Origin: a virus
IMG/VR virus record: IMGVR_UViG_3300049005_000019
Location: 1 to 36,282 of that record
DNA length: 36,282 nt
Direction: 5' to 3' (one strand)
The notes under the pieces were generated by a model, which was not told the origin of the DNA, made no database searches, and saw nothing but the letters and a program-made list of their open reading frames with translations. Of this stretch, positions 1-17,625 are shown piece after piece. How positions within the stretch are numbered: position 1 is the first letter of the stretch; each line of letters starts with the position of its first letter. A program made the translations under genes and the position numbers.

Positions 1-321
1 GAAGCCGTCCGTGTAGACGACGAACACCTTCTGATGGATCTTCGTGGACGACTTCGACACGTCGGAACTCCGTTCAGCGACCTCGACACCCGGCTGACCG
101 TTCAGCGACGGGAACTGCACCTGGATGGCCTCCGTTCTGGACAGCTTGTCCAACGAGGGACCGCCGGTGACGTCTCCCCCGTCAGTGTCGGCGAGGGTGG
201 ACTGCGCCTCCCCGCCGGTACCGATCGGGTCGGCCCTCGACACGGTGGAGTCGTCGGAGCCGACCTGCCCCGCGTCGGCGGCCGGGTCGGTCGCCGGGCG
301 GGTGAACCCGATGTCGCTCAC
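1..321 (-). CDS. Head-region hypothetical protein, N-terminal part (split by the window ends)
   Basis: The GTG start at 319-321 overlaps the capsid gene's TGA (324-326) by position only a few bases downstream, in the same transcription direction. It gives 107 codons with no stop up to position 1. The visible protein begins MSDIGFTRPATDP, is rich in Asp, Gly, Ser and Thr for the first 60 residues, and ends KVFVVYTDGF. I do not recognise the family. Its place directly after the major capsid gene and before the head-tail adaptor (across the window junction) suggests a small head or connector accessory protein. The remainder is probably the open frame at 36080-36282, but joining the ends directly is out of frame by one base, so a base may be missing at the junction. 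Confidence 0.75.
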   Translation of the reverse strand, partial: MSDIGFTRPATDPAADAGQVGSDDSTVSRADPIGTGGEAQSTLADTDGGDVTGGPSLDKLSRTEAIQVQFPSLNGQPGVEVAERSSDVSKSSTKIHQKVFVVYTDGF

Positions 322-323
322 GA

Positions 324-1241
324 TCAGGGGATGAGTTCGAGGACAGCGAACCCACGGACGTCGCCGACCACGAACCCGCGACGGGCACGCAGCTTCAGCA
401 GCGTCTCGTCGGTGAGGGCGGACGTGCCATCGTTGCCGGGGATGACGACCGACTCGGGGCCGCTCCTCTTGCCGAGACGCAGCAGGTTGCGAGCGCCAAG
501 GACGATCAGCGGGTTACCGGTGGGGACGTTGGTCGCCGTCGCCGACGTGCGGGCACCCAGGCTGAACTTCATCTCATACCCGAAGAACGTCGCCGCAGCG
601 CCGCCGATCGGGTCGGTGAAGATCGGGTGACCCTGCGTGTCCAGGATGCCGCGGAGCTGATCCTTGAACGCCGGGTGTGCGATGGCGATCGCCGCAGCCG
701 GGTCGAAGAAGGGGGATGCTTCCCAGATCTTGACCAGCGAACGGAGCTGCGCGTAGGTGAGGTTCGTCGCCGTGACGGTCGGCACGTAGTTGGCGTCAGC
801 GGTGTAGTTTACCGAGGCGTCGAGGGTGCGGACCGCCTTGTAGACGGACGTGAACGGGACCGTGGTGCCGTTGGAGGCGGCGGTGACGCCGAGGCAGGCG
901 TTGTCGATGACGACGGCGTAGGCGTTCGCCCAGGCGGTCTTCTTCTCGGTGATGACGTCGAAGAGGCCGTCCTCGATGTCCTCCTCAGCGAGACGGACGA
1001 CGGTGCCGAACTTGCGGGCGATGATCGTGATCTCGTCGACGGTGCCGGAGTCCTCCGCGTAGGCGGAACCCTTCGCGACGACGGAGACGCCGACCGCGCC
1101 GGAGCGCGGGATCGTCTTCGTGTACGACTTCATCGGCTCAGCGGTGGCGTACGTCTCCATTGCGGAGTTCTGGTTGACGACGCGGATGACGTCGGAGCCC
1201 TGCTCCTCGACAAGCCATGCGTCAATGACGGAACGGGCCAC
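324..1241 (-). CDS. Major capsid protein, HK97 fold
   Basis: A 305-residue protein forming the icosahedral shell. It starts with GTG after an AAGTGGAG ribosome-binding site. The sequence shows the mixed alpha/beta pattern of HK97-like capsids: an N-terminal arm, an acidic helix with EEDIEDGLFDVI near residues 92-103, a central segment with FFDPAAAIAIAHPAFKDQL, and a C-terminal beta-rich end (FAVLELIP). Length fits small HK97-type capsid proteins without a fused delta domain, and a separate scaffold gene lies just upstream. The context (portal, MuF, scaffold, capsid, connectors) makes the call firm even though no single catalytic motif exists for this family. Confidence 0.88.
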   Translation of the reverse strand: MARSVIDAWLVEEQGSDVIRVVNQNSAMETYATAEPMKSYTKTIPRSGAVGVSVVAKGSAYAEDSGTVDEITIIARKFGTVVRLAEEDIEDGLFDVITEKKTAWANAYAVVIDNACLGVTAASNGTTVPFTSVYKAVRTLDASVNYTADANYVPTVTATNLTYAQLRSLVKIWEASPFFDPAAAIAIAHPAFKDQLRGILDTQGHPIFTDPIGGAAATFFGYEMKFSLGARTSATATNVPTGNPLIVLGARNLLRLGKRSGPESVVIPGNDGTSALTDETLLKLRARRGFVVGDVRGFAVLELIP

Positions 1242-1378
1242 GAGGGCTCCACTTCTGTTGATGGGTTGACTGCTTCGGTCTGCCCATCACGGGCCCGTCA
1301 TCGGACGCTCAGCGGCTCACCATCACGGTTGCACCTGCCGGTTGAAAGTCACTCTAACGGCTTTTCGCTATTCAGCGC
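1242..1378. other. Scaffold-capsid intergenic spacer
   Basis: A 137-nt non-coding gap in the head operon. It contains a 10-bp palindrome (ACGGGCCCGT, around 1288-1298) and the capsid ribosome-binding site next to 1241. A separate promoter for high capsid expression would fit here, but I see no convincing -35/-10 pair on the minus strand. Confidence 0.4.
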
Positions 1379-2107
1379 TTAACCGCGGCCTTCCAGCATG
1401 GCGACCTGCTTCTCCGTCGCGGACATCGCCTTGCCCTTCCGAGGGGTCGTGTCGCGATCGTCGCCGCCATTGATCCGACGTCGGGTGCCCTTCGACCCGC
1501 GGAACAGGGCCGGGTACTCGAGGCGGAGACGGTCGATCTCGTCCGAGACGCCCTCCACCTTCCGGTTCTTCAGGTCGACGTCCAGCTCATCCACATCGAC
1601 CTCACGCATGAGAAGACGGATCCCCTTCTCGTCGACCCCGGCCTGGGCCAGCTTCGTCTCGAAGCGGAGGTCGATCAGGTCGCGGGTGCGCTCCGTCTCG
1701 ATCTCCTGCTCACGCTTCTTCACCGCCTTGTCGATCTGCCGCTTCACCTGACGCGCGTCGGAGACGGCCGGCTTCTGCTTCGGCTTCTCCTCCTCGTCAT
1801 CCGACTCGTCATCATCGTCGGCGGAGGCGTCGGCGGCCTTCTGGGCGGCCCGAAGCTCCTTGAGCTGCTGACGACGACGGTTCCCCGACGAGTTCGCCTT
1901 CGCCAGGGAGGCGCGGAGACGGGTGACCTCCGCCTTCAGCTCCTCCGGGGACTTGTCTTCGTCGTCGTCGTCGGGCTCGTCGTCGTCCTGGGCCTTCGCC
2001 TTCGACTTGGGGCGGGGCTCGTCGTCGCGGTCGTCATCGTCGTCGCGCTCCAAATCGTCGTCCTCGACCTCGTCGACGTCGTCTCCGGTGTTCACGATCA
2101 TGCTCAT
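1379..2107 (-). CDS. Capsid scaffold protein
   Basis: A 242-residue, highly charged protein. The first 60 residues are almost a polyaspartate/glutamate stretch with Lys patches, followed by a long predicted coiled-coil region (about residues 55-150, SPEELKAEVTRLRASLAKAN onward) and a basic C-terminus (RRRINGGDDRDTTPRKGKA). This acidic N-terminus plus coiled coil directly upstream of the capsid gene is the usual look of siphophage scaffolding proteins, which help assemble procapsids and leave before maturation. Its ATG overlaps the preceding gene's TGA (ATGA), so translation is coupled. A second in-frame ATG lies two codons downstream. Confidence 0.82.
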   Translation of the reverse strand: MSMIVNTGDDVDEVEDDDLERDDDDDRDDEPRPKSKAKAQDDDEPDDDDEDKSPEELKAEVTRLRASLAKANSSGNRRRQQLKELRAAQKAADASADDDDESDDEEEKPKQKPAVSDARQVKRQIDKAVKKREQEIETERTRDLIDLRFETKLAQAGVDEKGIRLLMREVDVDELDVDLKNRKVEGVSDEIDRLRLEYPALFRGSKGTRRRINGGDDRDTTPRKGKAMSATEKQVAMLEGRG

Positions 2108-2418
2108 GCTGAAACCGCCTCGTAGGTCGCCTCGAAGATGTCGGGCTTGCAGGGATAGAACTCGCCCTGAACGCCCTTGATGATGAAGTCGCCCTGTCGG
2201 CCGAGCATGTCGCCCTCGAGTGTCGCGATGACGATCCCGATCTCCGCACCATCACCCCCGGACTCGTTCTCGGGGTACGCCTTCCCGGTGTCCGGATCGA
2301 CGTAGACACCGTGGGCGATGGCCGGAATTGCTTCACCCATCAACCCGCACACCTCGCTCCAGGTGTCCCAACCAAGTTGAACGGCTTCGATGATGACGGG
2401 CTTCTTGCGGTACTTCAT
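2104..2418 (-). CDS. Conserved small phage protein (MKYRKKPVIIEA family)
   Basis: A 104-residue protein of a common but functionally undefined phage family, recognised by its N-terminus MKYRKKPVIIEA and C-terminal GEFYPCKPDIFEATYE. Such genes occur in many phages near lysis or structural genes. GAAGGA lies about 11 nt before the ATG. It sits between the holin and the scaffold and its stop overlaps the scaffold start. I assign no function. Confidence 0.75.
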   Translation of the reverse strand: MKYRKKPVIIEAVQLGWDTWSEVCGLMGEAIPAIAHGVYVDPDTGKAYPENESGGDGAEIGIVIATLEGDMLGRQGDFIIKGVQGEFYPCKPDIFEATYEAVSA

Positions 2419-2437
2419 GGGGGAGGTTTCCTTCTAC

Positions 2438-2806
2438 TCAGGACTTGGGGACGGGGCCGAGATGCAGCTTCGTCAGGAACGCGGCCACCGACTCGAGGTT
2501 GGCGATCCGGTTGATGGCGCCAGCCAGGATGCCGATCACCACGGCCGCTCCGGCGATGTCGGCGCCGACCGGAGTGCCGGGGAAGAGCTTGTTCGCCGCC
2601 TGCTCAGCGATCGGGGCGGCGGCAAGAGCTGCGGCGGCACCGAGGGCGCAGGTAGACAGGAACGACGTCACACCTGCCCTGATCGCCGTCCTGGCCGGAA
2701 ACTCCGTCTGGGTGGCGAGATGCTTGCTCGTCGTGGCCGACGTAGCAGCCGAAGTCGACGTGGTGGCCGTGGTGGTCGGCTCACTGGGCGGCAGGGACAG
2801 GGTCAT
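2438..2806 (-). CDS. Putative holin
   Basis: A 122-residue membrane protein. A Thr/Ser-rich N-terminal stretch (residues 1-30) is followed by two hydrophobic segments, about residues 46-67 (STCALGAAAALAAAPIA) and 78-100 (VGADIAGAAVVIGILAGAI), then a short charged tail. Its ATG overlaps the endolysin stop codon, and the small size, two membrane spans and pairing with an endolysin support a holin that opens the cytoplasmic membrane. Sequence alone cannot separate a holin from another lysis-related membrane protein. Confidence 0.7.
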   Translation of the reverse strand: MTLSLPPSEPTTTATTSTSAATSATTSKHLATQTEFPARTAIRAGVTSFLSTCALGAAAALAAAPIAEQAANKLFPGTPVGADIAGAAVVIGILAGAINRIANLESVAAFLTKLHLGPVPKS

Positions 2807-3447
2807 GAGATCTTCTCCCAGTAGTGAAGCTCGAGCGCGTCCGTCTTCGGACCACGCTTGCCATCATGTTTGTACGGCGGGACCGGGTAGCGGCCATCCT
2901 TGATGCCGGCTGCCTGGATCAGCCACACGTAATCGCCGTCCGGGTCGCCGGTGTGCGCCGTGTCTGTCTGGCGGCCCAGGTGGCGGCCGTTCAGGTAGGC
3001 GCCCAGCTTCTTGTAGTCGATGACCGGCACGACCGTGTGCCCGTCGTACTGGAAGTGGTTCGGGTCACCCTGAAGAGGACGGGTGAAGCCGTACGTCTTT
3101 GCCAGGGCGAAGAACGCGGAATCCAGCGGCGTCCCGACGATGTCGACACAGATCCCAAGGCCGTGGTTCGAGGTGCCCGCTTCGGCCAGGACTGCAGTAG
3201 AGGAGGACGACAGCCCCCACTTCGCCTTGTCGGCCTTCGTGCCGTGCAGCGACGCCGTCCGCATGGCCGACTGGACGGCGTACGACCGGTACCCGCCGGC
3301 CGGAGCAGCGATGCGGATCGTCCGGTCCAGGTGCAGCTTCACGGCCCTCTTCAAGCCCAGGTAGGCCTTCGCGGTGCCGTCGCCGAGCTGGATCGACCCC
3401 TGTACCGAAGTCAGGTCGCCGCCCGCCAGTCGCCCGTTGCTCACCAT
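2803..3447 (-). CDS. Endolysin, M15 (VanY-like) zinc peptidase
   Basis: A 214-residue peptidoglycan peptidase. The M15 signature is clear: GGYRS (residues 51-55), SNHGLGICVDI with H95 and D102, and NHFQYD with H131, which together would bind the catalytic zinc in D-Ala-D-Ala or L-Ala-D-Glu carboxypeptidase-type lysins. The C-terminal 70 residues (WLIQAAGIKDGRYPVPPYK) look like a small added domain, possibly a cell-wall binding element. TAGCGT at 3456-3461 lies 8 nt before the ATG, and an operator-like palindrome is just upstream (3475-3487). A lysis gene between MuF and scaffold is an unusual place. Confidence 0.88.
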   Translation of the reverse strand: MVSNGRLAGGDLTSVQGSIQLGDGTAKAYLGLKRAVKLHLDRTIRIAAPAGGYRSYAVQSAMRTASLHGTKADKAKWGLSSSSTAVLAEAGTSNHGLGICVDIVGTPLDSAFFALAKTYGFTRPLQGDPNHFQYDGHTVVPVIDYKKLGAYLNGRHLGRQTDTAHTGDPDGDYVWLIQAAGIKDGRYPVPPYKHDGKRGPKTDALELHYWEKIS

Positions 3448-3474
3448 AGGTTCCTACGCTACCCGTGAAACGTC

Positions 3475-3487
3475 GTTGACGCTCACT
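3475..3487 (+). promoter_or_regulatory. Divergent promoter with degenerate operator copy
   Basis: GTTGACGCTCACT matches the genome-wide GTTGAC-N2-TCAAC palindrome with one substitution in the right arm. For the plus-strand gene it gives TTGACG (3476-3481) and TAAAGT (3501-3506), spacing 19 bp, longer than ideal. For the endolysin on the minus strand, TAGCGT (3456-3461) is a candidate -10. The copy lies in the 57-bp gap between divergent genes. Confidence 0.5.
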
Positions 3488-3504
3488 TATCTCCGGCGCG
3501 TAAA

Positions 3505-3747
3505 GTGGCTGAAGTGGATTGGTCAGTGTTGCCCGTCACCGAAGTCGCCACCGCATCATGCGTCTACCCGGTGCACGACCTGGACCCTGCCCACTACTAC
3601 CCGACTGGTGCGACGAAACCGTCTTCCGGCCCGATCCATGTGCAGCGCCTGGTCGATGGTTCACTGTTCGTGCACGACGGACGACACCGTCTCATCCGGG
3701 CAATCCTCGCCCATCAGGCCACGATCGAGGCCCGCGTCTTCACTTGA
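3505..3747 (+). CDS. ParB/sulfiredoxin-like domain protein, antisense within late operon
   Basis: An 80-residue protein with the ParB/sulfiredoxin nuclease-like pattern: a hydrophobic strand with VHDLDPAHY (residues 23-31), GPIHVQRLVDG (42-52), and the hallmark DGRHRLIRAI (58-67) followed by IEARVF. In larger proteins this fold binds nucleotides and acts in partitioning, nuclease or kinase roles. Here only the core domain is present and there is no HTH or partner ParA. It is transcribed against the surrounding virion genes, and its last 8 bp overlap the 3' end of the MuF gene. With -10 TAAAGT at 3501-3506, the GTG at 3514 (7 nt later) would be a leaderless start, so the first three residues are uncertain. 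Confidence 0.72.
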   Translation: MAEVDWSVLPVTEVATASCVYPVHDLDPAHYYPTGATKPSSGPIHVQRLVDGSLFVHDGRHRLIRAILAHQATIEARVFT

Positions 3748-4663
3748 CGGTCAGCGTCGGCCCACCTGCCGGCACGTCTCGGCCGAACGGGAACTTGCCG
3801 GCCTTCACGGCGCGTCGGGCGTACTCCTTCACCGACTTCGGGGCGATCGGGTCGCGGTCCAGTAGGCGTGAAGCCGCACGGACCCGAGCTGCATTCGACT
3901 CGGAGGGAAGCGCGAAACCGCGCAGAATCGACCGCTGAGCCTCGCGCTGGAGGGCTTCCGCGTATGACGCATCGCCGAGCACGGCGAGGCGGCATCGGCA
4001 GTGGGCGTGAAGCGGAGGCTGGGAGACGATCGGCTGTGATGCGGGAGGTGTCGCGTACAGGTCGGCGGCCGGGAAGAAGTCACCCGCCTGCTCGACGACA
4101 TGGCCGGCGAGGGCGAGGCAGTAGACGCACGCATCACGCTCTGCCTCCCATACCATCGGCGACTTGACGGCCTCCCCGACGGTCAGCGAAGCGGCGTTGG
4201 AGGAGGCGTTGATCTGCGTCTCGATCCTTGCTTGCACCGTGTTCGCAGCAGCGAAGACGGGCGACAGCGCCTCTTCGGCTTTCGCCCCGACGGCGAGGAG
4301 GCCGAGCGCTGACGTCTTCGCTGAGGTGACCCGGGCGTCTAGGCCGGTCAGGGGTGCGACGAGGGTGTCGTGCGGGCCGGAGTCGAGGCGCATCTTCGCG
4401 TCCCCGACCGCGTTGTCGGTGACGTCGGGGAGGATCTGAGCGGACCCGATCGCCCAGTCGCCGCCCATCTGGTACGCCTCGAGCACGCCTGCCTTCGCTG
4501 CGGCTTCGATCTGCGGGATGGCGAGGCGGGCCAGCTTCGCCCCGATGCCGGGGGCTCCGGAGGCGAGCATGGAACGCAACTCGTCGACCGCTTTCAGGAA
4601 GTCGCCGGCCGCATCCTTCAGCACCCGCGCCTCGAGGGCCAGCAGGTCGTCCTCGAAGGTCAT
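3740..4663 (-). CDS. Minor head protein, SPP1 gp7/MuF-like
   Basis: A 307-residue minor capsid protein, usually present in a few copies near the portal. The N-terminal half is helical and Ala-rich. The diagnostic part is WEAERDACVYCLALAG (about residues 172-187) and PPLHAHCRCRLAV (about 217-229), the paired Cys-x2-Cys and H-x-HCRC motif of MuF domains. The C-terminus is basic. Order after portal is as expected. The upstream 129 nt is non-coding and no good ribosome-binding site is seen directly before the ATG. Confidence 0.87.
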   Translation of the reverse strand: MTFEDDLLALEARVLKDAAGDFLKAVDELRSMLASGAPGIGAKLARLAIPQIEAAAKAGVLEAYQMGGDWAIGSAQILPDVTDNAVGDAKMRLDSGPHDTLVAPLTGLDARVTSAKTSALGLLAVGAKAEEALSPVFAAANTVQARIETQINASSNAASLTVGEAVKSPMVWEAERDACVYCLALAGHVVEQAGDFFPAADLYATPPASQPIVSQPPLHAHCRCRLAVLGDASYAEALQREAQRSILRGFALPSESNAARVRAASRLLDRDPIAPKSVKEYARRAVKAGKFPFGRDVPAGGPTLTVK

Positions 4664-4792
4664 GCAGTGTCCAGTCCCGCAGCAGGGGATCCGAGTCGAA
4701 CGGACTTGGCTCTGCTTTCATGTGCGCACATGGCCGCGGGGGTTGAGGGGAATCGCACCCTCATGGCCGTGCCCCACTGGACAGATCCCACC
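4664..4792. other. Non-coding spacer with perfect palindrome and tRNA T-arm-like sequence
   Basis: The 129-nt gap between portal and MuF genes holds a 14-bp perfect palindrome, CATGTGCGCACATG (4719-4732). On the minus strand there is a T-arm-like stretch, GTCCG-TTCGACT-CGGAT, followed by CCCCTGC (about 4682-4706). I could not complete a tRNA cloverleaf on either strand, so no tRNA is called. Confidence 0.4.
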
Positions 4793-6463
4793 TTACCGAC
4801 CGCCGAACGGCGTGGGCGCATCCCCGACCGCATCGGTGACGCGCTCGAGCTGGTGCGCCGGCAGGGGTTCGGCCGCCACGATGTCACCAAAGTAGGGGCG
4901 AAACGCGCGCTTGATCGCCTCATCGGGCACCGAGCCCATGTTCTTCGCCATCCCCAGGTCGCGAAGTGCTGTGGACAACTGGATGAGCATGTTCGGCGAC
5001 AGCGGCATGGCCAAGCCGTCCGTCTCATCGATGGGCATGAAGTCGTCCACCTGGGCGGACGTGTAGCCGGCCTCCAGCAGCGCCTGACGGGGCGGAATGC
5101 CGTTGGCGATCTTCAACGCCACCAAGCTGATGCCCTCGTTGTCGGTGGCCGTCTCCGACGGGGCCCAGACGGCTTCCACCTTCTTGCCCTCATAACCGAG
5201 CGCGGCGAGGGCGTAGGCGCCGATGGCCGCCCAGGTGGTGCCGAACTGGCCTTTCACCTTCCCGGCGTGCTTCGTGATAGGGCCGTCGGCACGACGGCGA
5301 GCCTCACCGGACGGCTGATCCCCCGACCCGTCCAGGTCGAACTCATAGAGGGGCGTGCGGGACAGTGTTGCGCCGGCCCGGATTTGGAACGTCAGCGGAT
5401 CCAGGAACCCTTTCGGGTCGGCGGGGGCGAACGAGCCGACACCTTTCACCCCGTTCAGCATCCACATGCCGCCCGGGTCGGAGTTCAGCTTCGAACGGCC
5501 CTGCTCGTTACGGTGCGGACCGGTGACCGTCGCATCGCCCCACTCGGTACCGTCGTCATTGAAGTCGTCATCGATGTCGTCGTCGATCTCCGCGTTCGGG
5601 TCCATCGTCGCGTACCGCTGCGGGAAGCCGTAGTAGTCCATGGACGCCATCTGGGTGGCGTTGATCTTCGTGATGGCGTCCTGGGGGCCGTACATCTTCG
5701 AGTTGATGGGCAGGCCGTACGGCTTCCGGTCGGGCCGGAAGTGGAAGACGGGGAAGAGGCCGATCTCGTTCGGGATCGGGTCCGGCTGCCCGTCGTCGTC
5801 CAGGTCGAGCAGGTACTTCTTCACGTCGAACCCGTCGCCGGCGTCCTCACCGTCCTGAGTGGCGAACTCCCATGTCTCGTCGTCGTAGTAGACCAGCGCC
5901 TCCCACTCGCCCTTGCCCTCACCTTTGATCATCTGCACGGCGAAGTCGGGAATCCGCGAGTTGGACCGCTGGTAGCAGATGACGGTCGAGTGCGGGTGCT
6001 TCGGGGTCAACTCGATCGTGCCGACACCGGTACCGGATTCCCCGCCACCGTCCTCCTCGTCGTCGTCCTGCTCGTCCTGATCCTTGATGTATTCGGCGAC
6101 GACGTAGTAATCACCCAGATAAGCGGCGTGCAGGTGGATGTCGTCGGCGTCGTCGTCGAGACTGTTCGGCTCCCACAGTCGGAGACGGAGCTGCTCATCG
6201 ACGGCCGAGTCCTGGGTGGTCAGCGACATCAGGTCGACGCGGTCCATCAGAGCGTCGCAAGGAACGGAGGCGTAGTTCAGCCGGAAGGCGTCACCGTAGC
6301 GGTCCAGCAGCGTCCTCAGCTTCGGGTGGGTGATGATCTCCCGACGCTCACCCTGGTAGTACTCCTCCCGCTTCCGATACTCGGCCTGCTTGTCGGCGAT
6401 CGCCTTCAACCCCCGGCCCAGGTCCTTCAGGACGTCAGCAGGCTTGTCGGGGGCGAGGCTCAT
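4793..6463 (-). CDS. Portal protein, SPP1 gp6-like
   Basis: A 556-residue portal subunit forming the dodecameric DNA channel at the capsid vertex. Features: a charged helical N-terminus (DVLKDLGRGLKAIADKQ), the segment with YYVVAEY near residue 120, an acidic insertion DQDEQDDDEEDGGGES (about 128-143), the conserved PVFHFRPDR near residue 240, and a central GPQDAITKINATQMASMDYYG (about 256-275) typical of the clip/stem region. A second acidic loop follows (DDDIDDDFNDDG). The ATG at 6463 overlaps the methyltransferase stop (ATGA); longer in-frame extensions would intrude into that gene and are not used. Confidence 0.88.
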   Translation of the reverse strand: MSLAPDKPADVLKDLGRGLKAIADKQAEYRKREEYYQGERREIITHPKLRTLLDRYGDAFRLNYASVPCDALMDRVDLMSLTTQDSAVDEQLRLRLWEPNSLDDDADDIHLHAAYLGDYYVVAEYIKDQDEQDDDEEDGGGESGTGVGTIELTPKHPHSTVICYQRSNSRIPDFAVQMIKGEGKGEWEALVYYDDETWEFATQDGEDAGDGFDVKKYLLDLDDDGQPDPIPNEIGLFPVFHFRPDRKPYGLPINSKMYGPQDAITKINATQMASMDYYGFPQRYATMDPNAEIDDDIDDDFNDDGTEWGDATVTGPHRNEQGRSKLNSDPGGMWMLNGVKGVGSFAPADPKGFLDPLTFQIRAGATLSRTPLYEFDLDGSGDQPSGEARRRADGPITKHAGKVKGQFGTTWAAIGAYALAALGYEGKKVEAVWAPSETATDNEGISLVALKIANGIPPRQALLEAGYTSAQVDDFMPIDETDGLAMPLSPNMLIQLSTALRDLGMAKNMGSVPDEAIKRAFRPYFGDIVAAEPLPAHQLERVTDAVGDAPTPFGGR

Positions 6464-7119
6464 GCTCCGATGGTAGCGGGAGGCTCGATTAGACGACCGA
6501 TCAACCCGGTACCGATGAACTGCGTGTAAATCGGAGGAATCGCCTCTGCTATCTCCCGTCGCACGTCCGTCCAGTCGATGCCCATCGCCACTTGCCATTC
6601 GGCGACGGTGCCTTTCCCGCCGCCTTCACCATGGACGGCGAGATACGGGCCGTCGAAGTAGGCGCCGTGGCGCCATCCCCGCACTCGGCCACGGTGGCGG
6701 ATGTGGGCAGGGGCCGGCATCGTCCAGCCGCCCAGCTCGAAGTAGCGGTGACGGATCACCCCGAGGCCGAACATCTCCCCGCACAAGGTCAAGTCACGTC
6801 GAACCGGTGCGCCTTGCACGTTCTCGATCACGTACGGCTTCCCGATCTGCTCCAACAAATCACGCGTCGGTTCGATCAGGCGCGGCCACTCGTTGCCGTG
6901 CACCGCCTTCAATGCCGAGTAGTCCTGACACGGAGGGGACGCGTGGACGGCGTCGAACTCATGACCGTGAGCCGCCAGGTAGGCGAGAGCGTCAGCGACG
7001 TGGTGCTCGTACGGGTAGTTCGGTTGCGGGTCGATGTCCACGCCGACCACCTCGAAGCCGGCCCTCGAGTAGCCGACCGCCGCACCGCCGGCGCAGGAGA
7101 ACAGGTCGAGGATCCTCAT
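6460..7119 (-). CDS. DNA (cytosine-5) methyltransferase
   Basis: A 219-residue enzyme transferring a methyl group from S-adenosylmethionine to C5 of cytosine in DNA. Motif I DLFSCAGGAAVGY (residues 5-17), motif IV ASPPCQDYS with the catalytic Cys64, motif VI YVIENVQG (97-103), motif VIII RHRYFEL (123-129) and a motif X-like IPPIYTQFIG (194-203) are all present, so it appears intact. It is short, leaving a small target-recognition region between motifs VIII and IX, and I cannot predict its site. No cognate restriction enzyme was seen. It sits between terminase and portal, coupled to a zinc-ribbon mini-protein upstream and the portal downstream. Protection of phage DNA from host restriction is the likely role. 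Confidence 0.88.
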   Translation of the reverse strand: MRILDLFSCAGGAAVGYSRAGFEVVGVDIDPQPNYPYEHHVADALAYLAAHGHEFDAVHASPPCQDYSALKAVHGNEWPRLIEPTRDLLEQIGKPYVIENVQGAPVRRDLTLCGEMFGLGVIRHRYFELGGWTMPAPAHIRHRGRVRGWRHGAYFDGPYLAVHGEGGGKGTVAEWQVAMGIDWTDVRREIAEAIPPIYTQFIGTGLIGRLIEPPATIGA

Positions 7120-7244
7120 CGGATCTTCACGCCTCGATCAACGACGATAACCGAGGCGTTGCACCAAATGCACAACCAAGTCTCCCACCGTTCAGCCTTG
7201 GAAACGAAAACGAGGGCCCGACCACATCGAGTACAGAAGTGCAT
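7116..7244 (-). CDS. Zinc-ribbon mini-protein, leaderless
   Basis: A 42-residue protein with two CxxC pairs: C4-x2-C7 and C25-x2-C28, the latter in WLCIWCNAS, a minimal zinc ribbon. The stop overlaps the methyltransferase ATG, so both are expected on one transcript. TATGAT (7252-7257) lies exactly 7 nt upstream of the ATG, so the mRNA would start at the start codon with no leader. The role is unknown; a nucleic-acid or protein adaptor for the methyltransferase is only a guess. Confidence 0.7.
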   Translation of the reverse strand: MHFCTRCGRALVFVSKAERWETWLCIWCNASVIVVDRGVKIR

Positions 7245-7251
7245 GGCGACT

Positions 7252-7273
7252 ATCATACTAGTTGACTGTCAAC
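7252..7273 (-). promoter_or_regulatory. Leaderless promoter with operator palindrome upstream of the Zn-ribbon/methyltransferase genes
   Basis: The perfect palindrome GTTGACTGTCAAC (7261-7273), in plus-strand context CTAGTTGAC, lies directly upstream of a minus-strand -10 (TATGAT 7252-7257, or the overlapping TAGTAT). It sits in the 33-bp gap after terL, and would switch on methyltransferase and downstream head genes independently of the terminase transcript. Confidence 0.65.
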
Positions 7274-7277
7274 ACGT

Positions 7278-8819
7278 CTAGACATAGGCGAGTTGAGTCG
7301 CCACCGGACGGCGGTGCTGGGCCTTCTTCCGGTCCAGGAAGGCGATGATGCCGGTGCCGACGGCGTCGACCAGGTCATCGTGCGGAGCTCGAGGGAAACC
7401 GACCTGCTCCGTCTCCAGGTCGGTGAGGCCATGGGCGTGGACGACGTGACCTGTCTGGTAGAGGTTGAGCACTTCGGCCGCCCTCACCTCCTTTTTCACC
7501 GTCTGGTGGATGAGGCGCAGCTTCACCGGTATGTCGTGCAGGATCGCCGGCCATACCTCCCCGCCCTGATTCGTCTCGATCAGTAGCAGGCCGATCGCCG
7601 GGTCGGCGTTCAGCATGTCCATCACCTTCCGCCGAAGGTCGGCCCCCGACAGCTTCACCCTCAGCGCCCGCTTTACCCGACACCTGCCCGTCTTCGGCGG
7701 GTTCATCCCTGGTGCGTACTCGATGACCGCCAGCCCCGTGTAGTCGGAGGACTGCTTCGTCGTCACCGCCGGGTCGATGGACAGCAGCGTGCGAGTGACT
7801 CCTTCCAGCTCGCCCCGACGGAAGTCTTCGGCCACCCAGTACGCCCCGTCGAGGCCGAGCGGGTCGTTGAGGTAGTTCTTCATGTAGGACCGGGTGTGTT
7901 CAATGCGCTCCAGGTCCTCCAGCGGCCACCTGGCAGGCCAGATCGACTCCCTGGCCCCGTCGTCCTCGGTGACGATGGGAGCGTAGTAGAACGGCTCCCA
8001 GCGGTCGTCGTCGATCCACCTGGAGCGCTCGTCATCCCGGGCCACCTGGCCTCGAGCGACCCGGACGAGCTGGTGCAGGATCGAATCCGCCCGGGTGACG
8101 GTGCCGACGAAGACGACCCGTGCCCGGTCGTTCAGCGGCAGCACCGTGTCCTGAAGGGTGGCGAGCCGCTTCGCCGTCAGGTCGGCCGAATAGCGTTCCT
8201 CCGCCGGCTCGACGTCGTCCAGGATGAGCAGATCGGGTCGCAGGTTCCCGATCTTCAAACCGAGGGCCTGAGACTCCATTCCACGGGCGGCGAAGACGAA
8301 ACCGGACTTCGCTCGGTACAGGTCGGCCCGGTCCGCGTCGGTGATGCCCCGACGAGTGACCAGGGGTGTGCACAGGTCGGGGAAGTCGTCGCGGAGACGT
8401 TCGTTCGTTCGCAGCTCGGTGAGGAACGTCGCCAGGTGCGTCTCCGCCAACTTGGAGGAGTCGGCGAACGCGGCGACGAACTTCGTGTGACCGTGCGCGG
8501 CCGCCCAGAGCGGCACGATGAGGAACCACCACGTCGACTTCCCCATCTCGCGGGGGCCGACGAACGCCCGCCGGAACGGTTCCTGACGGATCAGCCGGCG
8601 ACCCTTCCGCGCCCAGTCGACGTGTACAGGCGACAGTGTCACCTCGTTGTGCGTCTGCTCGGAGGCCAGGTGGTGCCAGAGGTAGGTGAGGGCGAATGCC
8701 ATCGGGTCGGCGTGGGTGACGGTGCGACGGATCTCCGGCACGTCCAACGCCTCCAACTCGCCGGAGTAGAGGCCGAGCAGGTGGACGGCCGGGTCGACGA
8801 TCGTCGGGGGGAGGTTCAT
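7278..8819 (-). CDS. terL: Terminase large subunit
   Basis: A 513-residue packaging motor. The ATPase domain has Walker A GPREMGKST (88-96), Walker B LLILDDVE (197-204) and a coupling motif VFVGTVT (236-242). The C-terminal RNase H-fold nuclease has acidic residues in LSIDPAV (D349), LIETNQGG (E415) and PHDDLVDAVG (D481/D482/D485). All key residues are present. It pumps DNA into the prohead and cuts unit genomes. The candidate small subunit lies 4.5 kb upstream in the same direction, not adjacent. A GC-rich hairpin is 22 nt before the ATG. Confidence 0.93.
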   Translation of the reverse strand: MNLPPTIVDPAVHLLGLYSGELEALDVPEIRRTVTHADPMAFALTYLWHHLASEQTHNEVTLSPVHVDWARKGRRLIRQEPFRRAFVGPREMGKSTWWFLIVPLWAAAHGHTKFVAAFADSSKLAETHLATFLTELRTNERLRDDFPDLCTPLVTRRGITDADRADLYRAKSGFVFAARGMESQALGLKIGNLRPDLLILDDVEPAEERYSADLTAKRLATLQDTVLPLNDRARVVFVGTVTRADSILHQLVRVARGQVARDDERSRWIDDDRWEPFYYAPIVTEDDGARESIWPARWPLEDLERIEHTRSYMKNYLNDPLGLDGAYWVAEDFRRGELEGVTRTLLSIDPAVTTKQSSDYTGLAVIEYAPGMNPPKTGRCRVKRALRVKLSGADLRRKVMDMLNADPAIGLLLIETNQGGEVWPAILHDIPVKLRLIHQTVKKEVRAAEVLNLYQTGHVVHAHGLTDLETEQVGFPRAPHDDLVDAVGTGIIAFLDRKKAQHRRPVATQLAYV

Positions 8820-8841
8820 GGCCTCAGGTTAAGCATTGGAG

Positions 8842-8877
8842 GGGCCGCCCTGAGAACTGGAAGCTCTTGGGCGGCCC
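8842..8877. other. GC-rich hairpin upstream of terL
   Basis: GGGCCGCCC (8842-8850) pairs perfectly with GGGCGGCCC (8869-8877), with a short inner GAG/CTC pairing in the 18-nt loop. If the TTGACA-like box at 8917-8922 (minus strand) is a promoter, this hairpin would sit at the 5' end of the terL mRNA. It could also be a weak terminator; no U-tract is seen. Confidence 0.55.
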
Positions 8878-8895
8878 ACTACTTGTTCGCTGACA

Positions 8896-9090
8896 ATGAG
8901 AAACCTCTGTCGTCGATGTCAATCGACTCGAACTGAGACCAGCTCAGCGGCGTTCATATGGCGAACGCCCTACCTCTCGCGACCAAGCGACCTCAGGCTA
9001 GCCGATGTCGGCGACATGCGACACACTGGAGGCGTCGAGCACCCCCCAGCGTCCGACAACGGCAGAGGGCCCAGGATCTCTTCGGGATAG
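8896..9090 (+). CDS. Doubtful small plus-strand ORF ending inside a terminator
   Basis: A 64-codon frame starting MRNLCRRCQSTR, with one CxxC pair (residues 5 and 8) and two His near residues 42 and 48. Its TAG lies at the edge of the terminator hairpin, as with the two other convergent gene ends in this genome, which is the main argument for it. Against it: third-codon positions are much less GC-biased than in neighbouring genes, there is no ribosome-binding site and no clear -10 before the ATG. Confidence 0.22.
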   Translation: MRNLCRRCQSTRTETSSAAFIWRTPYLSRPSDLRLADVGDMRHTGGVEHPPASDNGRGPRISSG

Positions 9091-9103
9091 AGATCCTGGG
9101 CCC
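9067..9103. terminator. Strong intrinsic terminator hairpin
   Basis: A perfect 14-bp stem: GGGCCCAGGATCTC (9067-9080), 9-nt loop, GAGATCCTGGGCCC (9090-9103), followed on the plus strand by TTGCTTGT. It would end the minus-strand transcript of the mini-protein operon before terL, and any plus-strand transcript from the other side. Confidence 0.75.
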
Positions 9104-9212
9104 TTGCTTGTGCGCCTCGAGCGAGGCCCCCCCATGACGTCGCGCTCGTTACACACAGTGTCCCTGACGACTGGGGAGGGCGTCAGGAAGTCGTTGACCC
9201 CAGGTCAGGGGG

Positions 9213-9326
9213 TTAGCGGCGAAAACGCCTGAACAAGATGGCGCCCAGCTCGACAAGTCCGGCGACAACGGCCAGTCCGATGAGAACAACGACGCCGACC
9301 AGCACGTAGAAGATGAAGATGCTCAC
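9213..9326 (-). CDS. Small single-span membrane protein
   Basis: A 37-residue protein starting MSIFIFYVLVGVVV, hydrophobic from residue 2 to about 30 and ending in FRRFRR, so it is one membrane helix with a basic cytoplasmic end. The GTG overlaps the preceding stop (GTGA), with GAGGAG about 10 nt upstream. It is the last gene of a four-gene overlapping operon. Function unknown; membrane or lysis-related roles are possible. Confidence 0.65.
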   Translation of the reverse strand: MSIFIFYVLVGVVVLIGLAVVAGLVELGAILFRRFRR

Positions 9327-9550
9327 AGTGACTCGCTCCTCTTCTCGCAGCGCTTGCAGACGCGTTCGTGACGCCAGCAGCGGGCCCAGTGGGCTTCGAC
9401 GTGCTTCTGGCCCAGGTTCAGCTTCGGCATCGGGACGGTGAGGTTCATCCCCTCCAACGTCATCCCGCATTCGGTGCGGTAGCCGCGACCGGTCGGCTCC
9501 GACAGGTGCAGCGGGCCGTGGCCTCGACGGACGGGGACGCGAACGATCAT
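9323..9550 (-). CDS. Cys/His-rich small protein
   Basis: A 75-residue protein with a beta-rich N-terminus (MIVRVPVRRGHGPLHL), Cys at about 28 (TECGM), and a C-terminal cluster WARCWRHERVCKRCEKR whose CKRC pair could bind zinc with an upstream Cys or His. ATG overlaps the previous TGA. Unknown function, probably a nucleic-acid-binding mini-protein. Longer upstream extensions in this frame are arginine-rich shadow of the preceding gene. Confidence 0.65.
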   Translation of the reverse strand: MIVRVPVRRGHGPLHLSEPTGRGYRTECGMTLEGMNLTVPMPKLNLGQKHVEAHWARCWRHERVCKRCEKRSESL

Positions 9551-9804
9551 GACGCCACCGCCGTCAAGTGCCCGCCGCCGATGACGTCGAGGTGCTCGAG
9601 GATGTGGGCGAAGGCGATCATGCGAAGGCAGTAGACGCACACCGACGTGTCCTCGACGGCCACTGTCTGGGCTGCCGCCTCGATGGACAGGAACGTGGTC
9701 CCGTCGATCTTCACCGGAGCCGAGTCGCAGAGCGGAAGCCACAGGTCGGCCGACGAGGTGGCGAGGTGCGCCTTCCGTCGTTTCGGGCGGACGAGGGCGA
9801 TCAT
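9547..9804 (-). CDS. Small hypothetical protein with CxxC
   Basis: An 85-residue protein starting MIALVRPKRRKAHLA. It has a Cys at about 36 and VCVYCLRMIAFAHIL near residues 56-70, a single CxxC embedded in a hydrophobic helix, and ends HLTAVAS. It is coupled at both ends by ATGA overlaps to its neighbours. No family recognised. Confidence 0.62.
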   Translation of the reverse strand: MIALVRPKRRKAHLATSSADLWLPLCDSAPVKIDGTTFLSIEAAAQTVAVEDTSVCVYCLRMIAFAHILEHLDVIGGGHLTAVAS

Positions 9805-9980
9805 GCCGGCACGTCCATCATCAGCAGCTCGAAGCGGAGCGTCTCGGCAATCTGGCCGGCCTCGGAGTGGTGTTCGAGGATGGCGGCGGCGTTCGTTTTC
9901 GGGTGCAGCTCCAGGTCGACGAGACGTTCGACGTGCTCGACCAGCTCACGTGCGGCGGCGAGGATCTCGATCGGTGTCAT
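9801..9980 (-). CDS. Small helical hypothetical protein, first gene of operon
   Basis: A 59-residue, mostly helical acidic protein (MTPIEILAAARELVEHVERLV). I chose the ATG at 9978-9980 over the GTG two codons upstream because CATGCT (9987-9992) lies 6 nt before it, the -10 to start spacing seen at the other leaderless promoters of this genome. It is the first gene of a four-gene operon ending at 9213. Confidence 0.65.
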   Translation of the reverse strand: MTPIEILAAARELVEHVERLVDLELHPKTNAAAILEHHSEAGQIAETLRFELLMMDVPA

Positions 9981-9986
9981 AACCAC

Positions 9987-10009
9987 AGCATGACAGGTTG
10001 AGCCTCAAC
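9987..10009 (-). promoter_or_regulatory. Leaderless promoter with operator-like palindrome
   Basis: The perfect inverted repeat GTTGAG-C-CTCAAC (9997-10009; minus strand TAGTTGAGGCTCAAC) shares the outer arms of the GTTGAC-N-GTCAAC operator, with a changed centre. On the minus strand it is followed by CATGCT (9987-9992) and, after 6 nt, the ATG at 9980. This is the same layout as the promoters at 7252 and 17626. Confidence 0.55.
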
Positions 10010-10059
10010 TACCTAGTGGGCGGGTGTCCCCAGATCGAGCGTCAGTTACCCGGCCAGGG

Positions 10060-10227
10060 TCAGGCGACGTCAAGCGCCTTGTGCGCCTCGACGTCGTGCC
10101 AGTCTGCGGCGTCGCAGGCGGTGCCGCTGCTGTTGTGTGCCGAGACCCATGAGCACTCGTCGCACATCGCCCACCACTCATTGTGCTCAGGCATGAAGTC
10201 GACGACAGCGTGAAGCACTGGAAGCAC
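10060..10227 (-). CDS. Small zinc-finger-like protein
   Basis: A 55-residue protein read from GTG with AGAGGA just upstream. It has CDEC (about residues 22-25) and two downstream His (WHDVEAHK), giving a CxxC...H...H layout like its upstream neighbour. The gene begins 4 nt after that neighbour's stop. A second in-frame GTG three codons later is an alternative start. Function unknown. Confidence 0.6.
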   Translation of the reverse strand: MLPVLHAVVDFMPEHNEWWAMCDECSWVSAHNSSGTACDAADWHDVEAHKALDVA

Positions 10228-10230
10228 GGC

Positions 10231-10443
10231 TCATCCTCTCGCGAGCGTCAGACAACCCGGCGCCGCCAAAGTGTGGACGCCAGCCTCGTGTCGCTCGGCT
10301 TCGGCCACCACATCGGTGAGAAGAGCTGGACTGGATGCGCCACCCCACGTGCCGCAGCGATCGCAGTAGAGCCGTGGCAGCCCCTCCACGTCGATGAACA
10401 CCGCGTAGTGCTCCAGCAAGTCAGACAGCGGGACTACCGGCAT
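10231..10443 (-). CDS. Small zinc-finger-like protein, leaderless
   Basis: A 70-residue protein (MPVVPLSDLLEHYAVF) with CDRCGTW near residues 27-33 and a distal HEAGVH, i.e. CxxC...H-x4-H, which could bind one zinc. The ATG at 10443 is preceded by TAGCAT (10449-10454) at 5 nt and by CTGACG (10472-10477) at 17-bp spacing, so it is probably leaderless. Upstream in-frame extension (MVASG...) is therefore not used. Paired with the similar gene downstream, perhaps by duplication. Confidence 0.65.
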   Translation of the reverse strand: MPVVPLSDLLEHYAVFIDVEGLPRLYCDRCGTWGGASSPALLTDVVAEAERHEAGVHTLAAPGCLTLARG

Positions 10444-10448
10444 GCCTG

Positions 10449-10477
10449 ATGCTACCACCGGCGGCCGACAGCGTCAG
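10449..10477 (-). promoter_or_regulatory. Promoter of the zinc-finger pair
   Basis: Minus strand CTGACG (10472-10477), 17-bp spacer, TAGCAT (10449-10454), then 5 nt to the ATG at 10443. Unlike most other promoters here it has no GTTGAC palindrome, so it may be constitutive or differently controlled. Confidence 0.55.
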
Positions 10478-10614
10478 ATACCCCCATCGAAGGCTCGCGC
10501 GTTCCTCCACATGCGACCCGGGCCAGCCCGCTGCCATGCGCTCCCCGAGGACGCCACGGTGTGGGCGGAGCCAGAGTGTGGCTGCAAGCACCCATTCCAC
10601 GGAAGCTGACCGCG

Positions 10615-12048
10615 TCAAGCCGCGACGGGCGACCGGAGTGCGGTGAACAGGAGGTCCGCGATCAACGTGTGACCCGGCGCGAGCGGGTGAATCTGATCGC
10701 TGTAGTAGAGCCCATACGTGCCCGCGGCGGTCGTCGCGGGCATCGACTTGGACAGGTCCAAGTACGCCACGGTCGGATCGGCTTGAGCCACCGCCCTCAT
10801 AGCGCCGACGTAGTTGGCGTACGGCTCGAGCGTCGTGCCCTGCGGGGAGGTCGCGAAGGGTGCGACCAGCAGGATCGCCGTGTTCGGTGCTCCCACACGA
10901 AGCCGAGCGACGATAGTGACGAGATCGGCCCCAAACTGTGCGGAGCTACGGAGGCCCTTACCCCAGTCGTTCACGCCCAACATGATGGTGACGAGGTTGG
11001 GATTCGCGCCAACCGCGAGCTGCGACAGACTCGATCCACTGAGCCCGTCCTGGTTGACGTAGTCGTGGGCGCCCCACCCGGAGTGTCCACCGGGGATCCC
11101 ATGGACGCCCTTCGTCTCGTCACCATTGAACACGTCGATGCCAGCGAAGTTGAGGTTGCCGGAGTTGTAGGACACGGCGATCGTGTGGGTTCCAGCAGCA
11201 CCGAGTGCCACGTTATAGAGCCACGCGTCAACGACCGCTGCTCCTGCGCCAGCCGGGATCGTAACGGTGGCCGCAGCACCACCGTCGATTGACACCAGCG
11301 CGCTGCGCGCGTTCCCTGCCTGCACGAACCAGAGGTTCGCGGATGTACCGACGACCGTGAAGGTCGCGGTATCTGTGCCGCCGAGGAACATGCTGGCGAA
11401 GCCGGGGCCGAAGTAGGCGGGCGTGCCGACGTTGGCGGAGTTCGAGTGAGCCACCGGGATGGCGGGGCCGTTCACGGAGAGCTGTACCGCTGGCAAGTAC
11501 GAGCCGCCGACAGGGTTGCCCACGACGCACGGGTAGGCGGTCATCAACCGCTTCGCAAGCACGTTCACGTAGTGACCAGCCCAGGAGCCGGAACGTGCGC
11601 CTTCGGTGATGCTGTCGCCGAAGGCAAGGATGCGACAGGTCGCGGCATCGCGGTTTGCGAGAGCAGCGGCGAAGGGAAGCAGCGCCGATCGATTCAATAC
11701 CTCGAGTCCGCTGTAGCTGGCATCGAGGCTGGCCTTTGTCTTGTGGCCGGCGACGGGCCACCAGGAGCCGGTAGCGTCCGCGACGAGGTCAACTGACTCG
11801 TTCTGCCAGACCAGGGCCACAGTGCTCGTCGCGCCCCGGATCGGCCCGGAGATAGTGACGGCGTTCGTGGAGGCGTCGGTCTTCTCCACCGAGATCCGGC
11901 GGCCTGCGTTCGCGGTGACTGCCGCGGGGAGCGTCATGGTCAGCGCGGCGCTGGAGGCGTTCACGGGGTTGTGCTTACCGATCGCGAGCGCTCCGGCAGT
12001 GGTCACGGTGGTGGCGATGGAGCGGGGCAGTTCAACGGTGGTGGGCAT
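10615..12048 (-). CDS. Tail-associated SGNH/GDSL esterase
   Basis: A 477-residue protein. Residues 1-110 resemble a beta-rich tail-fibre N-terminal module (NAVTISGPI, SWWPVAGHKTKASLD). Residues 135-470 form an SGNH hydrolase: block I FGDSITEG with nucleophile S146, block III GVND (358-361), and block V DQIHP with D451 and H454. A jelly-roll-like beta insertion lies between about 200 and 310. Such virion esterases deacetylate or cleave acyl groups on host surface glycans. AGGAG lies 8 nt before the ATG, and the fibre gene is immediately upstream. Confidence 0.85.
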   Translation of the reverse strand: MPTTVELPRSIATTVTTAGALAIGKHNPVNASSAALTMTLPAAVTANAGRRISVEKTDASTNAVTISGPIRGATSTVALVWQNESVDLVADATGSWWPVAGHKTKASLDASYSGLEVLNRSALLPFAAALANRDAATCRILAFGDSITEGARSGSWAGHYVNVLAKRLMTAYPCVVGNPVGGSYLPAVQLSVNGPAIPVAHSNSANVGTPAYFGPGFASMFLGGTDTATFTVVGTSANLWFVQAGNARSALVSIDGGAAATVTIPAGAGAAVVDAWLYNVALGAAGTHTIAVSYNSGNLNFAGIDVFNGDETKGVHGIPGGHSGWGAHDYVNQDGLSGSSLSQLAVGANPNLVTIMLGVNDWGKGLRSSAQFGADLVTIVARLRVGAPNTAILLVAPFATSPQGTTLEPYANYVGAMRAVAQADPTVAYLDLSKSMPATTAAGTYGLYYSDQIHPLAPGHTLIADLLFTALRSPVAA

Positions 12049-12061
12049 CGTGGTTCTCCTG

Positions 12062-12922
12062 TCAGGCCGCGATGGACGCGGTGCCGTCGCCGTTGTCGGT
12101 GATGGTGGTGCTGCCGGTAGCGGTCAGCGTCGCGGTGCTGTCGAGGTTGTCGACGATCGAGAGGCCGCCCCCGCTGCCGCCCGGGACGGTGAACTTCGTC
12201 GCGTCGTACGTCGTGGTCGACGTGTGCGTGGTCGTGACCAGAGCGATCTGGCCGCTGGGATTGATCACGTACTGACCTGCGGAGTAGGCCGTGCTGGGCT
12301 TCCAGAGCGTCACACTCGTGGTTGAGTCTGTCGCTGCCTGGGCTGCGATGAGCGCCTGCACACCGGCCAGGTTCAGGGTGAGGATCGTCCAGTTGGCCGG
12401 GTTGTAGCTCGAGCCTGACGTGAAGCCGGTGTTCGCCTGCACGAGTTGCGCTGACGGGTTCAGCACCACCGTGCCTGAGGTGTAGGCGGTGTTCGGCGTC
12501 CACTCGTTGACCGCATCAAGGCCGGCGTTCACCGCTTGCTCGATCAGCGTAAGCATCTGCGCGAAAGTGGCATCCCAGTTGCGGGCATGCGACGTCGTGT
12601 CACCGAGCGAGGACGGGTCGACGTCGACCAGCGCCTGCCAGGTCACTGAAGCTTGATCGGGGACCAGCACAGTCCTGGTTTGAAGGATCGCCTGGGTGAC
12701 GCTGTCCCAGACGGTGAGGCGCCATTTCCAGGACGCGCTCGAGGGAACGAGCTGGACGAGATCGGCGGACGTGTTCACCGTGAAACTGAGCGACGTCGGG
12801 AGGACGACGACGGCTCCGGCTTCGCTGATCCCGGTCGGTGTCGCGGTCACGATCACCGGGTTGGAGGCGGTCGTGCCGTCAGGAAGATCCCGTCGCGGGT
12901 CGAACAGGATCCTCGTCACCAT
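12062..12922 (-). CDS. Tail fibre/minor tail protein with two carbohydrate-binding-like repeats
   Basis: A 286-residue protein. Residues 1-105 are beta-rich (MVTRILFDPRRDLPDGTTA). A helical linker with NWDATFAQMLTLIEQAVNAG follows (about 113-132). Then come two related modules, each with W-x-P-x-TAY-x2-G-x2-V-x-NPS (about 140-160 and 206-226), with TSGSSYNPANW in the first. These resemble small chitin/cellulose-binding folds of the W...Y..G..V type. The Gly-rich hinge GGSGGG precedes a C-terminal beta segment. Likely receptor binding, acting with the downstream esterase. Confidence 0.72.
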   Translation of the reverse strand: MVTRILFDPRRDLPDGTTASNPVIVTATPTGISEAGAVVVLPTSLSFTVNTSADLVQLVPSSASWKWRLTVWDSVTQAILQTRTVLVPDQASVTWQALVDVDPSSLGDTTSHARNWDATFAQMLTLIEQAVNAGLDAVNEWTPNTAYTSGTVVLNPSAQLVQANTGFTSGSSYNPANWTILTLNLAGVQALIAAQAATDSTTSVTLWKPSTAYSAGQYVINPSGQIALVTTTHTSTTTYDATKFTVPGGSGGGLSIVDNLDSTATLTATGSTTITDNGDGTASIAA

Positions 12923-12932
12923 GGGGCTGAGG

Positions 12933-13193
12933 CTAACGGACCTCGCCGGTCACGTGGATAGGCGTGTCGAAGTCGGCCGCATTCTCTTCGATCGCCGGCT
13001 CGTTGTCGACGTACTGGGGTGCGTTGTGGATCAGGAACGGTTCCACCTCGACGAAGGACGAGCCGAGCATCGTCGCATCCACCTGCGCGTCCTCCGGGTT
13101 GGCGTAGATGTCGATGATGCGCTTCTCGCCGATCTTCGGGTCGAAGCGGGTGATCGCCCAGAAGGTGTCGGGAGCATGTTTCACGTCGCTCAT
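12933..13193 (-). CDS. Hypothetical acidic protein
   Basis: An 86-residue protein starting MSDVKHAPDTFWAITRFDPK, with a compact alpha/beta N-terminal half and an acidic C-terminus (EPAIEENAADFDTPIHV). It sits between a small membrane protein and the tail fibre. No family recognised. Confidence 0.65.
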   Translation of the reverse strand: MSDVKHAPDTFWAITRFDPKIGEKRIIDIYANPEDAQVDATMLGSSFVEVEPFLIHNAPQYVDNEPAIEENAADFDTPIHVTGEVR

Positions 13194-13209
13194 CGTTTCA
13201 CGTCCAACA

Positions 13210-13356
13210 TCACTTCAGTTTGTTGATACGTCGGTGCACCTGATGCGACTTCCATCGTTTCACAAGCGAGTGGCCGGTGATGATGGCGACGGCGACGAGA
13301 AGGCCGGCCAGTGGGGCGAAAATGAACAGCAGCGTCCACTTCTCCCCGACGTTCAC
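13210..13356 (-). CDS. Small membrane protein
   Basis: A 48-residue protein (MNVGEKWTLLFIFAPLAGLLV) with one hydrophobic span at about residues 8-28 and a basic C-terminus (VKRWKSHQVHRRINKLK). The GTG overlaps the stop of the preceding gene (GTGA). Function unknown; its basic tail and single span resemble small phage membrane proteins of many roles. Confidence 0.65.
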   Translation of the reverse strand: MNVGEKWTLLFIFAPLAGLLVAVAIITGHSLVKRWKSHQVHRRINKLK

Positions 13357-13958
13357 TCCTCGTCCTGCACCTGCGCCAGGTCGGCCGTCATCTTCGCTTT
13401 CGCAGCCTCCATCGCAGCCTTCAGCTTCGTAGTGGCCGGATCGTCGTGCTCGACCAGCTCGTGCGTCACCTCAACCTGCTGCGGCCTGTCGATGCCGAGC
13501 AGCTTGCGCTTGCTCTCCATGACGCGGAGGAGCTGCGCTCGAGCCGTCATCCGATCCTTGAACGGGATCGAAACTTCTACCAAATCACCGCCCTCGGCCT
13601 CCGGGTCGATGACCCACGTCGAGGTCGACATGCTGGCACGAGCCCACCAAGCCTGCTCCTCGTCGAGCGCCTGCATCTCTTCGGCGATCATGTCGACCAG
13701 TGGCCGATTGATCATGTCTTCAACGACCTGCTCGCGTCGTTCGGAGAGCCGCCAACGCACGGTTCGCTCAGCGATGTGCTTCCCGAGACCAGCGTTCAAA
13801 TCGAACGATCCGTCGGCAAGTCGTACAGCGGCAACTACTGCCAACTGCGCGATGCGGTAGGGCGAGAGTTTGTTGACAGTGGCCTGATAGGTGATCCAGG
13901 AGTCTTCGAACGCACGCTCTCGGGTGATGAGCGCCTTACGAGCATGCTCTGCGGCCAC
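13353..13958 (-). CDS. Candidate terminase small subunit
   Basis: A 201-residue helical protein. The middle (YRIAQLAVVAAVRLADGSF, SERTVRWRLSERR) could contain a DNA-binding helix-turn-helix. The C-terminal pattern ARAQLLRVMESKRKLLGIDRPQQVEV is typical of small terminase proteins, which recognise packaging sites. A Lys/Ala-rich helical tail follows. The GTG abuts the TAG of the upstream gene. Against the call: it lies 4.5 kb from terL with tail-fibre genes between. Another DNA-binding structural protein is possible. Confidence 0.48.
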   Translation of the reverse strand: MAAEHARKALITRERAFEDSWITYQATVNKLSPYRIAQLAVVAAVRLADGSFDLNAGLGKHIAERTVRWRLSERREQVVEDMINRPLVDMIAEEMQALDEEQAWWARASMSTSTWVIDPEAEGGDLVEVSIPFKDRMTARAQLLRVMESKRKLLGIDRPQQVEVTHELVEHDDPATTKLKAAMEAAKAKMTADLAQVQDEE

Positions 13959-14237: not shown

Positions 14238-14290
14238 CCCTTCAGGGTACCGCCTACCACGGCTCGGGGTCCAGGGGCGAGACCAATGAC

Positions 14291-14467: not shown

Positions 14468-14474
14468 AGCCCAT

Positions 14475-17124: not shown

Positions 17125-17130
17125 AACACC

Positions 17131-17619: not shown

Positions 17620-17625
17620 GTCCAG

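Follow-up and report, generated by a model that had tools for sequence, protein, structure and literature searches.

Results

A small antisense gene lies between a head gene and a lysin gene

The window analysed in this study, by which we mean the whole 36,282-base stretch of the virus record IMGVR_UViG_3300049005_000019 (64% G+C), carries on its plus strand an open reading frame of 80 codons (3505-3747), which is flanked on one side by a MuF-like head gene and on the other by a VanY-like lysin gene, both on the minus strand (Table 1). The tail-to-tail overlap with the MuF-like gene that had been claimed for it is borne out and amounts to 8 bp. Antisense frames are common at this G+C content, and the window holds 251 open reading frames of at least 50 amino acids; an open frame alone therefore proves nothing, and homologues were sought. 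A viral contig (L018, 5010-5252) encodes a full-length homologue of 80 amino acids, in which 36 of the 77 aligned residues are identical, and the C-terminal half of another one, cut by the contig edge, was found in L014 (3-119; 58% over 36 residues). Identity between the window gene and its L018 counterpart by codon position is 0.62/0.66/0.42, so that third positions vary most. This is the pattern expected of coding sequence and supports a protein-coding gene; the codon-position G+C content of the window gene is 0.70/0.46/0.72. The plus-strand gene at 3505-3747 is genuine. Its start is most likely the GTG at 3514, nine bases inside the frame, rather than 3505, because the L018 protein begins with MDWTSLPVT and translation from this GTG gives MDWSVLPVT and a product of 77 instead of 80 amino acids. 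Two other small plus-strand frames in the late block (10183-10449 and 10442-10609) have a gene-like codon composition and are without a Pfam match, and the gene may therefore not be the only plus-strand one in that block, as had been claimed.

Table 1. Features at and around the slot between the MuF-like and lysin genes.
Feature	Position	Strand	Basis
VanY-like lysin gene, one side of the slot	2803..3447	-	PF02557 at E 0.002, below cut-off; 59% identical to the L002 lysin
Leader of the lysin gene, common to the divergent plus-strand gene; has the quasi-palindrome GTCGTTGAC	3448..3513	-	Conserved with L002
Candidate promoter TTGACG-N19-TAAAGT	3476..3506	+	9/12 matches
Single-domain ParB/sulfiredoxin-fold gene, 77 aa	3514..3747	+	L018 and L014 homologues; sub-threshold PF23719; codon-position identity
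DGRHR, P motif (GxxR) of the ParB/sulfiredoxin (Srx) superfamily	3676..3690	+	VHDGRHR invariant in three family members
MuF-like head gene, other side of the slot	3740..4663	-	PHROG 24918 (head morphogenesis) at 3.4e-7; 69% identical to L002

Homologues and family profiles

The homologues were reached in steps: L014 came from an alignment that joined the window protein to two ParB N-domains of plasmids, and L018 from the pair of L014 and window proteins. With the window sequence alone as query, no relative was confirmed among the 7 stretches returned from viral_contigs or the 153 from genome_contigs, nor did the family query confirm any of 98 genome_contigs stretches. Matches of the window query to named phages were judged weak in the best 20 of 30 records (E up to 10), and a match to Streptomyces gp123 was inspected and attributed to chance. 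The L018 query returned a single weak match in named phages, lying under the annotation of another gene, and a single weak match in plasmids, where the plasmid search had otherwise given 7 weak matches, two of them ParB proteins. No relative is confirmed in the bacterial genomes, named phages and plasmids searched. The DNA pattern for HDGRHR occurs in 91 stretches of viral_contigs, 80 of which were read by eye; 77 of these were judged chance frames and one was the contig of L018 again, while the remaining two (L053 and L068) seem to be DGRHR domains within long proteins. These two long phage proteins (L053:8678-13503 and L068:5011-6966) carry a stretch HDGRHR...GVKS(M/V)PV, which has the look of a related domain set in large proteins of the polyvalent type.

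All three family members stop just after ARV and keep VHDGRHR intact, and the DGRHR motif named in the original prediction is indeed present. The L018 gene is embedded in a run of same-strand frames, without an antisense arrangement. The only Pfam match of the window protein is PF23719 (Antitoxin VapB-like), covering profile positions 13-95 of 97 at 21.8-22.9 bits, which lies below the 27-bit cut-off; the L018 protein passes the cut-off with 28.1 bits over residues 2-78. The part of PF23719 that matches best is the half holding the ParB P motif. Searching nine records with PF23719 gave no match, and the literature search found no mention of this family. PHROG 17560 (unknown function) weakly matches the window, L018 and L014 proteins. 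Pfam ParB_N has no match in the window at E up to 10, and searches of NCBIfam, PADLOC and PDB sequences yielded nothing credible. In a comparison of profiles, hhalign aligned the three-member family with four ParB N-domains at a probability of 97% (E 8.8e-11, 40 columns), with 0.3% for two unrelated control alignments, and the family HMM scored the four ParB domains at 21.2-29.7 bits, against 8.7 bits for the best of 2000 shuffled copies.

Predicted structure

A single-sequence AlphaFold model was poor (pLDDT 47) and was set aside. The model built from a five-sequence alignment (pLDDT 69.2) places its elements in ParB/Srx order (E2-7, H10-14, H20-23, E41-45, E51-55, H57-65, E70-76), with a beta-alpha-beta-beta-alpha-beta core whose four strands and two helices, together with the GxxR P motif, are those of the superfamily fold; as two of the five aligned sequences are ParB N-domains, this fold is not independent. 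The model gave 112 PDB structure matches at E up to 10, and the only two below 0.001 were the ParB structure 7bnr and the sulfiredoxin 7lj1. In VIA-align, ParB 7bnr_A (Z 7.4, rmsd 2.9, 69 aligned) and sulfiredoxin 6ky4 (Z 7.0, rmsd 2.9, 69 aligned) stayed under a Z of 8, which is middling and can reflect a common arrangement, and a Z of 2 was reached by 68 of 159 chains. The BFVD viral structure matches include annotated ParB/sulfiredoxin proteins of 94-119 amino acids; this list and that of PDB matches both rest on the ParB-informed model. The window protein very probably has the ParB/sulfiredoxin fold, and the original assignment is supported by the comparison of profiles as well as by that of structures, in which ParB and sulfiredoxin were the best solved matches. 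Its description as a minimal domain without a helix-turn-helix (HTH) likewise agrees with the profile comparison, the model and the shared C-terminal end of the homologues.

The slot varies among related phages

The phage is a tailed phage and probably an actinophage, an actinobacterial host being suggested by the relatives of its portal. Queries with the MuF, lysin and capsid genes found L002 as the sole relative; in this nearest relative, the order of the portal, MuF, lysin and capsid genes matches that of the window. The gap of L002 between MuF and lysin genes holds 178 bases of other sequence instead of the small gene. The Microbacterium phages Wyvern and Isperia carry a gene annotated as endolysin next to the one at the MuF position, with no gene in between, and OscarSo has a same-strand gene in this slot. 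The window gene is consequently present in the slot in none of the four related phages examined, and this variability supports the accessory role that had been proposed for it.

The slot sequence of L002 contains, in antisense orientation, a perfect T-arm and an acceptor-like tRNA 3' end (1490-1620, minus strand), resembling the 3' half of a tRNA; this element may represent an RNA similar to tRNA or the core of an attachment site. A tRNA gene was rejected, with no call by ARAGORN and none by Rfam at gathering; the match to the tmRNA model is only an 18-base T-arm at 12.6 bits, where the gathering score is 47, and the RNA fold has a z of -1.03.

Farther along the minus strand, a C5 DNA methyltransferase-like cargo gene (6460-7119, 219 amino acids) separates the terminase and portal genes. 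At the DNA level it shows 73-77% identity to mycobacteriophage methyltransferase genes among the listed hits, and it is the only part of window positions 1-20000 among the 20 hits listed. The listed start of the portal frame (4793-6598, minus strand) is probably too early; from the internal methionine of MSLAPDKPADV, the portal gene would overlap the methyltransferase gene by only a few bases.

Leader and candidate promoter

The 66-base lysin leader is conserved in L002 at a score reached by none of 1000 shuffles, with the similarity extending to about base 3511. As L002 is without the small gene, this conservation is not to be credited to that gene, and part of its supposed promoter therefore belongs to the lysin side. 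The candidate promoter is weak and ends 7 nt before the GTG at 3514, which would set the transcript start at or beside this codon and make the message leaderless. Among 2000 random 70-nt stretches drawn from the window, 0.75% attain the match level of this site; a standard promoter scan with 16-18-nt spacers did not list it, and the second hexamer (TAAAGT) is not kept in L002. Of the promoter with an operator copy that had been ascribed to the gene, the promoter thus stands in part. The operator copy was rejected, since the leader resembles the early and late divergent leaders no more than expected by chance (193 and 123 of 1000 shuffles). The pattern TGACGN5TTATS, which occurs three times, was picked post hoc, after the sequence had been seen.

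The divergent region itself has a 52-nt inverted repeat (14291-14342 and 14416-14467, 85% complementary) between the start of the late block (minus strand, 14294) and that of the early block (plus strand, 14475, Prim-Pol). With the repeat at both starts, the early and late blocks share nearly the same leader.

Discussion

The best overall explanation, which we favour by a modest degree, is that of a mobile accessory NTP-binding ParB/Srx protein that is expressed apart from the late genes. An accessory cargo gene would have been inserted on the opposite strand into the slot between MuF and lysin genes, with a product that is essentially one ParB/sulfiredoxin domain. By analogy with the superfamily, its DGRHR motif would form a phosphate-binding pocket, and NTP binding is fairly probable. 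The protein may then serve as a small switch controlled by nucleotide, or as a phosphotransferase, acting on a partner of host or phage, where a host-directed role is a tentative suggestion that we hold slightly less probable than not. Its own divergent promoter, possibly with a leaderless message, could keep it out of step with the late genes, for which we see even chances; the location of the gene on the opposite strand, with head genes on one side and lysis genes on the other, also suggests that the product is wanted separately from virion assembly.

The window protein falls into an already described class of single-domain phage proteins. According to one study, phages encode short proteins (about 100 amino acids) consisting of almost only the ParB-CTPase fold (PMC12704722), and the window protein is likewise phage-borne and very short, with a 77-residue model that aligns from 1 to 77 to ParB/Srx chains. 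It differs in being undetected by ParB_N and in its antisense position in a head/lysis block. In the same study, 11 of 28 purified proteins of the fold bound an NTP (CTP, ATP or GTP) via the GxxR arginine, which was the residue mutated there, and 17 bound none; the NTP binders described are domain fusions, unlike the small single-domain type (PMC12704722). The short phage proteins are counted there but unexplained (PMC12704722), and the window gene provides a very small, clear example, whose 77-amino-acid product is easily made and tested.

The window protein shares the fold and the GxxR motif with the N-terminal domain of ParB, Noc and KorB, yet it has neither the HTH, the dimerisation domain nor the Box III region of these proteins and ends right after the fourth strand. 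Lacking HTH and dimerisation domain, it is not a partition protein, in agreement with the original prediction, and no ParA was found among the 28 window frames scanned with PHROGs. Sulfiredoxins have the same fold and size, and their structures are among the best matches. Their catalytic cysteine lies in a GCHR motif, whereas the window protein reads GRHR, with arginine at the position of this cysteine; the only cysteine of the 77-residue form is residue 16, the L018 protein has none, and a link to peroxiredoxin is missing.

The main rival to the NTP-binding accessory reading would make the protein an effector that nicks DNA or acts against the host, in the manner of Osa, DdrB-like domains or Tox-ParB; its pocket would cut DNA under regulation by an NTP, and it would be made early against the host or a rival element. 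ParB/Srx domains do occur in conflict proteins of phages and plasmids (PMC5512222, PMC3482391), DdrB-like versions are located near virion genes (PMC5512222), and a DGHHR motif conserved in ParB toxin domains as well as nuclease and NTPase activity for Osa and ParB-like domains are reported (PMC3482391, PMC5512222). Osa structures are also among the VIA-align rows (4ovb and 4o7k; Z 5.2 and 4.3, rmsd 3.2, 72 aligned). The Osa and DdrB-like domains of this superfamily, which mobile elements use in conflict (PMC5512222), are however larger or sit within polyvalent proteins, the window protein being a bare domain for which neither an immunity partner nor any part for secretion or fusion was seen and PADLOC finds nothing; moreover, nuclease claims for the fold are disputed in the same literature (PMC3482391). 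We consider such an effector unlikely. The name of PF23719 would point to an antitoxin or repressor, and the L018 protein indeed exceeds the threshold of this family, which the window protein approaches from below. But a PIN-type toxin, as expected next to a VapB, is found neither among the scanned window neighbours on either side nor among the six scanned neighbour frames of L018, and the match is strongest in the ParB P-motif half, which makes this role improbable. As the window family links PF23719 to the ParB fold, it is rather the antitoxin name of that entry which is in doubt.

There is little probability, too, that the gene is a decayed remnant, i.e. the functionless first part of what was once a longer ParB gene, remaining after insertion. 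Every ParB part after the N-domain is missing, and the slot is without the gene in all four related phages examined, as such decay would have it; the L018 and L014 proteins nevertheless share its C-terminal end and keep VHDGRHR unchanged, and third codon positions are the most variable. Least expected of all is a role in cis, with antisense transcription over the MuF end or the lysin leader tuning the head or lysis genes and the protein being secondary. The antisense place in the late block, the shared conserved lysin leader and the likewise non-protein content of the L002 slot would fit, but the similarity to L018 spans the full-length protein, and there the context is one of same-strand frames.

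Returning to the accessory NTP-binding protein, a broader and rather speculative extension, to which we give a low probability, is that the gap between MuF and lysin genes forms a dedicated cargo slot with a divergent promoter. The lysin would be read from one strand and the cargo, i.e. the small ParB-like gene in the window or a tRNA-like RNA in L002, from the other, which could supply factors aimed at the host on a schedule different from that of the late genes.

Versions of different size occur side by side in this protein group: the 60.5-kb contig of L018 (G003) also encodes two larger ParB_N proteins (47289-47537 and 51760-52002), so that the single-domain and larger versions coexist.
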